In this document: piece by piece, positions 1,454 to 18,173 of the stretch
Position numbering within the stretch: the stretch's first letter is position 1
Layout: each line of letters starts with the position of its first letter
Assembly (NCBI RefSeq): GCF_017916505.1
Contig: NZ_JAFMSZ010000002.1
Span: 186,001-250,000, forward strand
DNA: 64,000 nt
Direction: 5' to 3'
From: Naasia sp. SYSU D00057
GTDB lineage: Bacteria > Actinomycetota > Actinomycetes > Actinomycetales > Microbacteriaceae
The notes under the pieces: generated by a model
What the model was told of the DNA's origin: nothing
What the model saw: only the letters and a program-made list of their open reading frames with translations
The model's database searches: none
Translations under genes and position numbers: made by a program

Positions 1454-1661
1454 GGCTACCACTCTTCCATCGCATCCCGACTCGGCGGAAAACGCCGGTC
1501 GGGGCCTTGACGGCGAGGATCGCGTCGTCCCCTCGCCAGGAGCCTGTCCCTCGAGCAGGAGCACGGACCCCCGGCTGCTGCGAGAGGGACGCCGTGCTGC
1601 CGAAGGGACGGGGTCGCTGCCGTCCTTCCGCTGATCGGCGGCGACTTACGATGGAGGGCTC

Positions 1662-14179: not shown

Positions 14180-15169
14180 TCAGGAGCGCGCGGTCGCCTG
14201 CGCGTTGACCTCGTACGAGGTGTTCGTGGACTCGAAGAAGTTGACGAGCTGCAGCGTGTCGTTCGCCGTCGCCATCCACTTCGCCGGGTTCGAGACGTTG
14301 TACTCGGGCTCGAAGCCGAGCTCTTCGAGGCGCCGGTCCGCGAGGTACTTCACGTACTGGTTGATGTAGTTGGCGTTGAGGCCGAGGATGCCGTTCGGGA
14401 GCAGGTCGTGGTTGTACTGCTCCTCCATCTCGACGGCGTCGGTGATCATCTTCTTGATCTCCGCCGCGAACTCGGCCGTCTGCAGGTCCGGGTTCTCGTC
14501 GAGCACCGTGAGGATCAGGTTGATGCCGAACTTGAGGTGCAGGCTCTCGTCGCGGACGATCCAGTCGACGAGCGAGCCGAAGTTGCGCAGCAGGTTCCGC
14601 TGGCGGAACGACAGCGCCACCATGAAGCCCGAGTAGAACCAGATGCCCTCGAGGATGATGTTGTACGCGACCAGGTTGCGGACGAAGTCCTTCTTGCCGG
14701 CCGTCGTCGTGATGTCGAGCTGCTGCTCCGTCATGCGGCGGATGAAGCCGACCTCGAACTCCTCCTTGCGAGCCATCGAGGGCACCTCGACGTGGGAGTT
14801 GTAGGCCTCGTCACGGTCGATCGGGAACGTCTCGAGGACGTACTCGAACGACATGCAGTGGTTCGCCTCCTCCCACATCTGCTTCGCGAGGTAGAGGTGC
14901 GCCTCCGGAGCGTTGATGTAGGGGTAGACGCCGAACGCGAGCGCCTTGTTGACGAGCAGCTCGCTCGGGTTGAAGTAGGACATGAGGAACGTGATCGCGT
15001 GGCGCTCCTCGTCCGTCATCCGCTTGAAGTCGGCGATGTCCTCGCCGAGCTGGATCTCGTTCGGGAACCACGTGTTCGCCACGGCCTGCTCGTACAGGTC
15101 CATCGCCCACTTGTACCGGACGGGCTTCAGCAGGAGGCCTTCCTGAATGCCTGTGCCGAGGATGCTCAT
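14180..15169 (-). CDS. nrdB: Ribonucleotide reductase class I beta subunit, class Ic-like (Phe at radical site)
   Basis: A 329-residue R2 subunit that generates the oxidant used by NrdA to reduce ribonucleotides. Metal ligands can be assigned as E70, E101, H104 (in WEEANHCMSFEY), E174 (LEGIWFYSGF), E208 and H211 (RDESLHL). The residue four after H104, where E. coli R2 has radical Y122, is F108. The first ligand is Glu rather than Asp. Both features match the Chlamydia class Ic enzyme, which uses a Mn/Fe centre and no tyrosyl radical. The ATG has AAGGA upstream. It is the last gene of the nrd operon, 124 bases after the mini-ORF. Cofactor identity is inferred from residues only. Confidence 0.92.
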   Translation of the reverse strand: MSILGTGIQEGLLLKPVRYKWAMDLYEQAVANTWFPNEIQLGEDIADFKRMTDEERHAITFLMSYFNPSELLVNKALAFGVYPYINAPEAHLYLAKQMWEEANHCMSFEYVLETFPIDRDEAYNSHVEVPSMARKEEFEVGFIRRMTEQQLDITTTAGKKDFVRNLVAYNIILEGIWFYSGFMVALSFRQRNLLRNFGSLVDWIVRDESLHLKFGINLILTVLDENPDLQTAEFAAEIKKMITDAVEMEEQYNHDLLPNGILGLNANYINQYVKYLADRRLEELGFEPEYNVSNPAKWMATANDTLQLVNFFESTNTSYEVNAQATARS

Positions 15170-15293: not shown

Positions 15294-15395
15294 CTACTGG
15301 CAGGAGTCGCACATGAGGAGGTCCATCGGGTCCATCGGGACGAAGTAGGTCTCGCCCGCGGCCGTGAAGACGGTGTCGGTGCCGAACTCGCTCAT
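15294..15395 (-). CDS. 33-residue CxxCQ mini-protein, apparent detached C-terminal redox tail of NrdA
   Basis: A 33-codon frame whose ATG (15395-15393) shares its A with the nrdA stop (TGATG), with a weak AAGGCGGA site upstream. The product ends MDPMDLLMCDSCQ. Class I NrdA proteins normally end with a mobile tail carrying two cysteines, often CxxC near the last residue, that reduces the active-site disulfide. The NrdA frame here ends without such cysteines, so the tail seems to be encoded separately in the -1 frame. Two TGA codons in a row close the nrdA frame. It could be translated by re-initiation, fused by -1 frameshifting, or reflect a sequencing or mutational frameshift. It is too small for most gene callers. 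Confidence 0.6.
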   Translation of the reverse strand: MSEFGTDTVFTAAGETYFVPMDPMDLLMCDSCQ

Positions 15396-17902
15396 CAGCT
15401 GTCCGCCTTCGGGGCGAGGCCGCCGAAGCCGAAGCCGCGGCGGGCCGGGGCCGGGACGGCCGGCTCGGCGTCCGGGACGGCCGACACGGCGGTCGCCTTC
15501 TCCGGGCTGACCGGCTGCGCGGCGCCGAAGCCGCGCTTCTGGCCCTCGCCGATGCCCTCCGACTTGTTGACGCGCACCGTCGACTGCTCGGCGGTGTGCC
15601 GCGGCTTCATGTGCAGGTAGTACGTCGTCTTCACGCCGCGCTCCCAGGCCGCGTAGTAGATGTCCATCATCTCGCCGACGTCGCGCGTCTCGAGGTACAT
15701 GTTGCGGCTGATGGCCTGGTCGATCCACTTCTGGGCACGCGCCGCGACCTCGAGGAAGGCGTACGGCGAGAGCTGGAAGCTCGTCTTGTAGGTCGCCTTC
15801 ACCTCGTCCGGGATCTCGGCGATGTTCTGGATGTCGCCCTGGCTGCGCAGGATCGACACGCGCACCTTCTCCCAGAGGCCGCGCTTCTGCAGGTCGGCGA
15901 CCAGGTTGCGGTTCACCTCGAGGAACTTGCCCGAGGACGTCGCGCGGCTGAAGATCTGCGAGAACTGCGGGTCGAGGCCGGGCGTGGTGCCCGCGACGAG
16001 GCCGATCGACGCGGTCGGCGCGATGGCCATGAGCGTCGCGTTGCGCATGCCGCCCTTGACCTTCTCGCGGAGCGCGTCCCAGTCGAGGCGGGTCTTGCGG
16101 TTCACCTTGATCGGCACGCCGCGGTCGGCCTCGGTGAGGGCGATCGAGTCGAGCGGCACGAGGCCCTGCGACCAGCGCGAGCCGGCGAAGTTGGTGTAGG
16201 CGCCGCGGCTCTGGGCCAGGTCGGCCGACTCGTCGATCGCCGCGTAGGAGACGTGCTCCATGATCTCGTCGATCAGGTCGTAGGCCTCCTCGCTCTCGTA
16301 CGAGAAGCCGAGCTTCTCGACGACGTCGGTGAAGCCCATGACGCCGAGGCCGATCGCGCGGTTCTGCTGGTTCGAGAAGTCGGCCTCGTCGACGCTCGAG
16401 AGCGTGATGTCGATGAGGTTGTCGAGCTGGCGCACCGCGAGGCGGGCGCTCTCCTCGACCTGGGCCCAGTCGAAGCCGAGCGTGCCGTCGCCCTGGTCGT
16501 GCAGGTGGCGGGACAGGTTGATCGACGCCAGGTTGCAGACGGACACGTTGTCACGGTCCTGCGGGAGGCAGATCTCGGTGCAGAGGTTCGACAGGTGGAT
16601 CGTGCCCGTGTTGTTGTTGAGGGCGCGGTTGTTGATCGTGTCCTTCCAGGTCAGCCAGGGGTGGCTGGTGGTCTGGAGGGCGATGAGGATCGCCTTGAAC
16701 TGCTCGCGCGCCTTGATGCGCTTGAACATGCGCAGCCGGCCGGCGTCCGCCTCGGCGACGTAGTGCGCGTAGCGGGCGGAGAACTCCTTCCCGTACAGCT
16801 CGTTGAGGTCGGCGACCTCCAGCGGGTCGAAGAGGTACCAGTCCTCGTCGTTCTGCACGCGCTTCATGAACTCGTCGGAGATCCAGACGGCGGTGTTCGC
16901 GGTGCGGGTGCGGCGGTACGGGTCGCCGGAGTTCTGGCGCAGGTCGAGGAACTCGGGGAAGTCGAGGTGCCAGTTCTCCATGTAGAAGCAGAGGGCGCCG
17001 AACTTCTTGCCGCCGCGGCTGACCGCGCGGAGGATCGAGTCGATCGTGTGCATGAACGGGATCGGGCCGGTCGAGGTCGTGTTGTTCGACCGGATCGGCG
17101 AGCCCTGCGCCCGGAGCTTCGTGACCGAGAGGCCGATGCCGCCGGTGCCCTTGGTGAGCCACATGACGTCGCGCGTGGTCTTCGCGATGTGCTCGATGTC
17201 GTCCTGCATCTCCATGACGAAGCAGTTGGAGAGCTGCGGGTACTTGGTGCCCGCGTTGACGAGCGTGGAACCGGCCGCGAGGTAGTCGAGCGTCGACATC
17301 TTGCGGTAGAAGGCGATGGCGGTCGACGTGGCGTCCTGCTCGTTCAGCGAGAGACCCATCGCGATGCGCATCCAGAAGTACTGGGGGACCTCGAGCGGAT
17401 CGTTGTTGCGGGCCTTGATGCCGTAGCGGTTGTTCAGCGTCACGACGCCGATGTACTTGAGCTGCTCGTCGCCGGCCGGGTCGATGGCCGCGGCGAGGCG
17501 GTCGAGGTCGAAGTGCGTGGCGAGGCGGTCGTCGAGGAGGTCCTCGGCGACGCCGCGCTCGATGTAGGGACGGAAGCCGGAGGCGTGCAGCGACTTCAGC
17601 TCCTCGGCGGTCGTGTAGTCGCCGAGCACGCGCTTGTAGATGGTCTTCAGCAGCAGGCGGGCGGCGACGGTGTCGAACGCCGGGTCGTCCTTGACGTTCT
17701 GGAGCGCGACCTGGATGACCGCCTCGTCCAGCTGCTGGGTGGTGATCCCGTCGAACAGGGTGAGCTCGAGCTCGGACGCGATCTGGGTGACCCACGTGAT
17801 GTTCTCGTCGAGACCGGCACTGGCGTGCTCGATCGCGAGGTTGATCTTGTTCGCGTCGTAGGGCTCCCGCTCCCCATTGCGCTTGACGACGGTTATCGAC
17901 AC
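15395..17902 (-). CDS. nrdA: Ribonucleotide reductase class I alpha subunit
   Basis: An 835-residue catalytic subunit reducing ribonucleoside diphosphates. An N-terminal ATP-cone (about residues 3-92) gives allosteric activity control. Active-site residues can be assigned as C227 (SNCFVM), N439, C441 and E443 (SNLCTEICLP) and C456 (SVCNLAS), and the radical-transfer Tyr pair lies in KTTYYLHMK near 761-762. After this comes a Pro/Ala-rich linker with the repeated RGFG motif, ending GLAPKADS with no redox cysteines. The GTG at 17902 was chosen because GGGAGG lies five bases upstream. NrdR boxes and DnaA-like sites lie about 220-320 bases upstream, and the long leader carries three hairpins. Confidence 0.93.
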   Translation of the reverse strand: MSITVVKRNGEREPYDANKINLAIEHASAGLDENITWVTQIASELELTLFDGITTQQLDEAVIQVALQNVKDDPAFDTVAARLLLKTIYKRVLGDYTTAEELKSLHASGFRPYIERGVAEDLLDDRLATHFDLDRLAAAIDPAGDEQLKYIGVVTLNNRYGIKARNNDPLEVPQYFWMRIAMGLSLNEQDATSTAIAFYRKMSTLDYLAAGSTLVNAGTKYPQLSNCFVMEMQDDIEHIAKTTRDVMWLTKGTGGIGLSVTKLRAQGSPIRSNNTTSTGPIPFMHTIDSILRAVSRGGKKFGALCFYMENWHLDFPEFLDLRQNSGDPYRRTRTANTAVWISDEFMKRVQNDEDWYLFDPLEVADLNELYGKEFSARYAHYVAEADAGRLRMFKRIKAREQFKAILIALQTTSHPWLTWKDTINNRALNNNTGTIHLSNLCTEICLPQDRDNVSVCNLASINLSRHLHDQGDGTLGFDWAQVEESARLAVRQLDNLIDITLSSVDEADFSNQQNRAIGLGVMGFTDVVEKLGFSYESEEAYDLIDEIMEHVSYAAIDESADLAQSRGAYTNFAGSRWSQGLVPLDSIALTEADRGVPIKVNRKTRLDWDALREKVKGGMRNATLMAIAPTASIGLVAGTTPGLDPQFSQIFSRATSSGKFLEVNRNLVADLQKRGLWEKVRVSILRSQGDIQNIAEIPDEVKATYKTSFQLSPYAFLEVAARAQKWIDQAISRNMYLETRDVGEMMDIYYAAWERGVKTTYYLHMKPRHTAEQSTVRVNKSEGIGEGQKRGFGAAQPVSPEKATAVSAVPDAEPAVPAPARRGFGFGGLAPKADS

Positions 17903-18125: not shown

Positions 18126-18173
18126 TCACTATATATGGGGCGTGGAGCATGGCGGCAACCCTAGATATTGCGG
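18126..18173 (-). promoter_or_regulatory. Pair of NrdR boxes upstream of nrdA
   Basis: Two 16-base boxes, 18126-18141 and 18158-18173, read on the nrdA strand as GCCCCATATATAGTGA and CCGCAATATCTAGGGT. Both resemble the NrdR consensus ACACwATATATwGTGT. Their starts are 32 bases apart, three helical turns, which is the usual NrdR arrangement. NrdR represses ribonucleotide reductase genes when dATP is high; the nrdR gene itself is not in this window. Confidence 0.75.

Follow-up and report, generated by a model that had tools for sequence, protein, structure and literature searches.

The stretch of DNA analysed here, referred to as the window, comprises 64,000 nucleotides (nt) of the genome of Naasia sp. 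SYSU D00057 (Microbacteriaceae; contig NZ_JAFMSZ010000002.1, positions 186,001 to 250,000) and carries on its minus strand a ribonucleotide reductase (RNR) locus with the gene order nrdA, a 33-codon open reading frame (ORF), nrdB. The catalytic subunit of a class I RNR is encoded by nrdA (15395..17902, minus strand), for which the GTG at 17902 is the predicted start, giving 835 amino acids (aa). Its frame ends in GFGFGGLAPKADS (...GLAPKADS) and is closed by two TGA codons in a row, the first at 15397-15395. The short ORF (15294..15395, minus strand) opens with an ATG on the last base (A) of this first TGA, i.e., as TGATG with a 1-base overlap, and reads MSEFGTDTVFTAAGETYFVPMDPMDLLMCDSCQ up to its stop, the tail end being ...VPMDPMDLLMCDSCQ. 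It would thus encode a redox-tail mini-protein of 33 aa ending in MCDSCQ, an assignment that was made by reading the ORF and by finding a separate ORF at this place in relatives. An earlier note on this DNA had described just this, an nrdA frame without C-terminal cysteines followed by a TGATG-opened 33-residue ORF, and re-reading confirmed it; the coordinates 15294-15397 that it gave are right, the upper end taking in two bases of the nrdA stop.

NrdA from the window matches the profile NF005101 with 1635 bits (cut-off 988) and contains the Pfam domains ATP-cone, Ribonuc_red_lgN (all-alpha) and Ribonuc_red_lgC (barrel). In an alignment with 79 named relatives, three active-site cysteine columns (residues 225, 439 and 454 of the 833-aa NrdA stretch aligned), with the roles known from E. 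coli NrdA, are kept in 80, 79 and 80 of the 80 sequences. The last 60 residues contain no cysteine in any of these 80 proteins, and the same-chain C-terminal redox pair expected of a class I large subunit is therefore found in 0/80. The genome of the window encodes one RNR large subunit (PF02867 search) and also has an NrdR gene; the nearest named relatives of its NrdA are from Naasia, Microbacteriaceae. A class II identity of NrdA (NrdJab-type, B12-dependent) was considered and rejected, since the class I profile is the best match, NrdJ_Z reaches 372 bits and stays below its cut-off of 399.95, and nrdB is adjacent.

The split is common to the whole family. For a first set, the 80 best of 451 named nrdA loci were taken. 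One of them leaves its contig before the NrdA stop, so that 79 were readable; a separate tail ORF lies between nrdA and nrdB in 76 of these, three have none there, and a fused tail was found in 0/79. A second set of 68 family loci (L033-L100), which includes that of the window and overlaps the first set, apparently by more than 20 loci, gave a separate tail in 63/68 and none beside nrdA in 4/68. In the first set, the mini-ORF measures 21-57 codons (21-36 in 72/76), starts with ATG in 65 cases and GTG in 11, and begins between 4 nt before and 16 nt past the end of the nrdA stop, overlapping this stop in 57/76. These lengths and offsets are estimates, as the start was set by rule at the furthest in-frame ATG near the stop, or else at GTG/TTG. 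Relative to nrdA, the tail lies in the -1 frame at 66 loci, in the same frame behind the stop at 6 and in the third frame at 4 (n=76), and the second set shows a comparable spread with 50, 8 and 5 (n=63).

Outside the Microbacteriaceae the situation is different. In other families of the order, a homologous tail is in frame with NrdA at 19/19 loci read, ending for example in ...CPVDPMERLQCESCQ or ...VDGVACPVDPMERLQCESCQ directly before the stop. The order-level search for NrdA had matched 43 genomes, of which those read are the 19 over the cut-off besides that of the window, 23 below the cut-off being left out. An order-wide search for the tail itself (248 genomes) gave a single match in each of 16 genomes outside the family; 15 of these matches lie within frames of 873-1098 aa and one (G225) within a 458-aa frame, where that genome also has its partial NrdA match. 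At a threshold of E 0.001, this search detected no second, stand-alone tail outside the family, but its sensitivity is limited, since 4 of the 19 fused tails escaped it as well. Phylum-wide (396 genomes), the tail search returned two matches beyond the genome of the window, of which one lies in a frame of 909 aa and the other, a partial one, in a frame of 357 aa. In a tree of 100 NrdAs, the 81 proteins without a fused tail (including 4 that lack a linked tail ORF as well) separate cleanly from the 19 fused ones, with support of 1.0 on the fused side and 0.426 on the other. Because the tail is fused in frame in other families and was found fused at none of the readable loci of this family, we infer that it was split from NrdA once and long ago.

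The tail gene beside nrdA is mostly not the only one. At least two tail matches are present in 64/70 of the family genomes concerned, and the genome of the window has its second copy on contig C15 (366080-366157, MDFDNDLGYAVPVDPMDLLQCDSCQ). Among 40 stand-alone loci fetched (L122-L161), 36 are near hadA-hadB, with murB also in view in 34, and because this neighbourhood is common to so many of them, the hadA-hadB-linked tail appears to be a single gene passed on by descent. Even the genome G015 (0.93 Mb), by our inference that of Tropheryma whipplei, has it.

Both kinds of tail gene share a promoter motif. Upstream of nrdA, the window has two putative NrdR boxes on the minus strand, box 1 (CCGCAATATCTAGGGT, 18158..18173) and box 2 (GCCCCATATATAGTGA, 18126..18141), which are 32 bp apart. 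Such pairs of NrdR-like boxes, 31-33 bp apart, were found in 30/30 and 80/80 nrdA promoters (overlapping sets) and in 34/41 stand-alone promoters, as compared with a background of 4/1580 and 8/2910 sequence windows. RNR operons are known to be preceded by paired NrdR boxes, commonly separated by 15-16 bp (PMC12051234), and the box spacing in that regulon is the same as here; the difference is that in the present case the putative boxes also precede a stand-alone mini-gene without the RNR core. The promoters of these tail genes can thus be called NrdR-type, binding and repression by NrdR being putative. Further copies of the tail that lie in longer frames, such as L162, L164 and L172 (paired boxes in 2/19), and viral copies (1/80) seldom have them, which speaks against a promoter shared by all copies.

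The presence of the tail goes along with the type of NrdA. Among 150 family genomes, a tail was found in 70/70 of those with a tail-less NrdA (68 above the cut-off and 2 as fragments) vs 3/80 of the others. Of these 80, 76 give a weak match to the NrdA profile (approximately 175-204 bits among the matches listed) and 4 give none. The three genomes outside the 70 that count as tail-positive are G020, by a match at E 0.3, G141, by a match at E 0.13, and G113, which is 77% complete and gave no NrdA. In G141 (L387, around 1485-1545, minus strand), the match is a 16-codon open frame that ends in CPVDSMDELNCDSCQ and lacks a start codon ahead of the motif, and this stretch is perhaps the relic of a lost tail gene. 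As a further observation, G132, which has the same genus code as the genome of the window, has neither the tail-less type of NrdA nor a tail and gives a weak NrdA-profile match of approximately 181 bits; the type of RNR may thus have been exchanged within the genus.

In six genomes the tail is absent beside nrdA and at least one copy is present elsewhere: G015, where it lies 33 kb from nrdA, G053, G123, G138 (taken to be the genome of locus L243), Naasia lichenicola (L190) and a Cryobacterium metagenome-assembled genome (L262). The stretches between nrdA and nrdB of these genomes, read in three frames, contain no CxxCQ end. In the NrdA tree, the loss of the linked copy is nested within the tail-less group, with L190 inside Naasia and L243 together with L262. 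Because the only tails in these six genomes are unlinked to nrdA, the tail can there act only as a separate chain, provided that NrdA needs one.

The short coding sequence is also under selection. For its last 14 codons, the ratio of nonsynonymous to synonymous polymorphism (pN/pS) is 0.217 for the 63 distinct nrdA-linked sequences, 0.121 for the 33 from stand-alone chromosomal genes and 0.118 for the 65 viral ones, i.e., this part of the tail is under purifying selection. No Pfam or NCBIfam model matched the 33-residue peptide at E up to 10. We also considered that the mini-ORF might be a chance ORF and rejected this on account of the second copy in the same genome, the conservation at the same place across the family, the purifying selection, the NrdR-like promoters and the co-occurrence of tail and NrdA.

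Furthermore, phages, plasmids and viral contigs have copies of the tail. A tblastn search with a stand-alone peptide found it in six phage records representing four distinct phages: phiPsal1 of Pontimonas (E 8e-4), the Clavibacter phages CMP1 (0.07) and CN1A (3), and Pan2 (0.07). The weak values among these (0.07 to 3) were accepted because an ORF could be read to its stop in each phage. There is no annotation at the tail in phiPsal1, CMP1 and CN1A, and a hypothetical protein in Pan2; in the four phage records, an NrdA-type match was not found, and in three phage isolates the tail copy adjoins lysis genes. Pan2 (L185) is listed under Pseudanabaena and has an annotated 27-aa ORF ending in CPNDPADLVSCESCQ; either this host label is doubtful or the separate-tail arrangement reaches further. 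In IMG/VR, 194 contigs encode the tail. The best 80 of these were fetched; every one ends in C..CQ and has a start codon from which a product of 20-40 residues would result, although some lie within longer frames of up to 350 codons. In 77/80 of these loci the stretch examined has no match to nrdA or nrdB, and the other three have nrdB only; 16 viral records searched whole, which may be fragments, gave no NrdA-type match. The three loci with nrdB (L304, L314, L317) combine it with a tail mini-ORF and have no NrdA match in their whole records either, and a phage of this type may supply the beta subunit and the tail to an alpha subunit of the host.

Plasmids carry the tail as well, in 19 records (Clavibacter 15, Leifsonia 3, Gryllotalpicola 1). 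According to a gene table that is incomplete, the tail has no annotated feature in 5/19 of these, is a hypothetical protein in 12/19 and is called an RNR subunit beta in one, namely WP_223361114.1 on a Leifsonia plasmid (L393, 3962-4063), a 33-aa tail gene misnamed as ribonucleotide-diphosphate reductase subunit beta. On pCM2 of Clavibacter, the tail lies within a 162-bp hypothetical gene. In L162, L164 and L172, going by the ORF listing, the tail stands at the end of longer open frames that have the segment ...GEPAAA.MW..AHA... in common, and is possibly fused there to another small protein; the neighbours of L162 and L172 are ParA- and ArdC-like, as named by eye.

In class I RNRs, a reduced pair of cysteines on the flexible C-terminal tail of the large subunit is believed to reduce the active-site disulfide and to be recharged by a redoxin (PMC5704485). 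There is also a working precedent for the use of a second chain, since in Pseudomonas aeruginosa the main role of NrdJb is disulfide exchange for NrdJa (PMC4520616). Because the cysteine pair is encoded on another chain here and because NrdJb provides this precedent, we favour, at a probability of roughly 0.88, that the mini-protein is the detached C-terminal redox tail of NrdA and acts in trans, as a diffusible mini-subunit, to re-reduce NrdA. Translation of the mini-ORF would follow that of nrdA, with termination probably coupled to re-initiation at the TGATG, and the 33-residue product would dock on NrdA in trans. After every turnover, its CxxC would then return the active-site disulfide to the reduced state, before being recharged itself by a redoxin, as happens with covalent tails elsewhere. 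The second, unlinked chromosomal gene would supply the same tail from its own NrdR-type promoter. That the tail is a separate polypeptide acting in trans was one of the possibilities raised by the earlier note, and the genomic evidence now speaks strongly for it.

Several observations weigh against this interpretation. A Shine-Dalgarno sequence is only moderately matched before the mini-ORF, with 5/6 matches in 34/76 and 6/6 in none, where 4000 random 18-mers gave 5/6 in 295 and 6/6 in 34. The well-conserved part of the tail covers only about 15 residues. At one locus of the second set (L092), a tail ORF precedes nrdB, and the NrdA frame has no stop ahead of the tail. The view that the fused state is ancestral rests on parsimony only, as the NrdA tree is midpoint-rooted with no further outgroup. 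As for the promoters, 7/41 stand-alone ones fail the box test and a stricter score passes only 23/41; paired boxes also stand before 11/19 of the fused nrdA genes, and because fused genes have them too, these boxes mark the RNR regulon and not the split.

Of the other explanations, the one that fares best, while still improbable, is that the stand-alone copies, those on phages and plasmids above all, serve as decoys or inhibitors, either competing with the linked tail or sequestering redoxins, and are not working tails. This would fit with the rarity of the NrdR-type promoter among viral copies, and the position beside lysis genes in the three phage isolates means that the timing of expression need not serve the synthesis of deoxyribonucleoside triphosphates (dNTPs). 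However, unlinked copies are the only tails in six genomes, the C..CQ end is preserved in every viral copy fetched, and a pN/pS of 0.118 shows strong purifying selection on these copies.

Less probable is a covalent tail, joined to NrdA by frameshifting or by read-through of the stop, the -1 frameshift having been the second possibility of the earlier note. The predominance of the -1 frame (66/76) and the overlap of most mini-ORF starts with the nrdA stop agree with it. A programmed frameshift would, however, go along with a conserved frame and with linkage, and what we find is three frames (66/6/4 of 76), start codons as far as 16 nt beyond the stop and six genomes with the tail only elsewhere; moreover, the stand-alone chromosomal, phage and plasmid copies encode the tail with a start of its own. 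Because all three relative frames occur, frameshifting is not the general mechanism. Slightly less credible again is that NrdA works tail-less by direct reduction and that the mini-ORF is vestigial. NrdJa of P. aeruginosa alone does have low activity with dithiothreitol (PMC4520616), but purifying selection, presence in 70/70 genomes, a separate promoter and conserved neighbours are all at odds with a vestige. Finally, a sequencing or assembly indel in the genome of the window, the main alternative named by the earlier note, has practically no likelihood left, since assemblies of many genera have the same arrangement (of 79 loci, 76 are split, three lack a tail ORF there and none is fused) and relatives with an in-frame tail, which the earlier note had regarded as pointing to such an error, are absent from the family and belong to the 19/19 loci of the other families of the order.

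As regards the type of enzyme in which the detached tail would operate, nrdB (14180..15169, minus strand) encodes a Chlamydia-like radical-generating subunit whose closest solved structure is 1syy (E 4.6e-74), which we take to be the class Ic RNR subunit of Chlamydia trachomatis. Residue 108 of NrdB, presumably the column of the radical tyrosine in other RNRs, is phenylalanine in 76/76 aligned sequences including that of the window, likewise as in the C. trachomatis protein. Because NrdB is closest to 1syy and has phenylalanine at the position of the radical tyrosine, the enzyme is probably class Ic-like, a likeness that covers NrdB only. T. whipplei, to which we attribute G015, is listed as class Ic in a review (PMC4009431).

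Split RNRs as such are known, and the relation of the present case to them deserves attention. NrdJa/NrdJb of P. aeruginosa likewise have the C-terminal cysteines on a separate polypeptide that acts by thiol-disulfide exchange and is needed in vivo, and at the coding level the same holds for the Microbacteriaceae, where the redox cysteines are encoded on a separate polypeptide. In contrast to the enzyme here, NrdJab is class II and B12-dependent, and NrdJb was studied as a purified subunit and not as a tail of 20-35 residues. The split is described for P. aeruginosa and a few related gamma-Proteobacteria, and the available portion of that paper contains no mention of an unlinked second gene or of mobile copies (PMC4520616). 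In phage Aeh1, the aerobic large subunit NrdA likewise consists of two polypeptides, there in a working enzyme, but the division was caused by insertion of the homing endonuclease gene mobE, (PMC2988022), while here nrdA and the tail follow each other with no gene inserted, and only the redox tail is split off. A further comparison is with the fused NrdA of the other families of the order (L103-L121), which has a homologous NrdA and a homologous tail on one chain. Searches of open-licence PubMed Central papers brought up no recognisable account of a class I tail that is a mini-protein of its own. What appears new in the literature searched is a class I tail that exists family-wide as a mini-protein, is repeated at an NrdR-type locus and is found on phages and plasmids.

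One practical consequence concerns annotation, from which the tail gene is often left out or in which it is unnamed. Another concerns the enzymology of RNRs in general. RNR structures show the large subunit with a disordered C-terminal tail (PMC5819950), and because of this disorder the delivery of electrons by the tail is hard to study. A tail that is naturally encoded as a separate chain could be titrated, mutated, labelled and examined while bound to the core enzyme.

For the Microbacteriaceae themselves, a diffusible tail in the proposed role would mean an extra regulatory layer in the supply of dNTPs. As to the mobile copies, we lean towards the possibility that phages and plasmids supply the host NrdA with tails. 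Taken together, and with a similar measure of confidence, the RNR of this family would have a third, diffusible mini-subunit, the supply of which would be controlled apart from the core and which would now be a portable gene: phage and plasmid tails of approximately 20-35 residues, encoded without NrdA and on some viral contigs together with nrdB, would plug into the NrdA of the host and drive or redirect its dNTP synthesis. If this is true, mobile elements carry a tiny piece of a host enzyme and not the whole enzyme, and the phage and plasmid tail would be among the smallest auxiliary metabolic genes.

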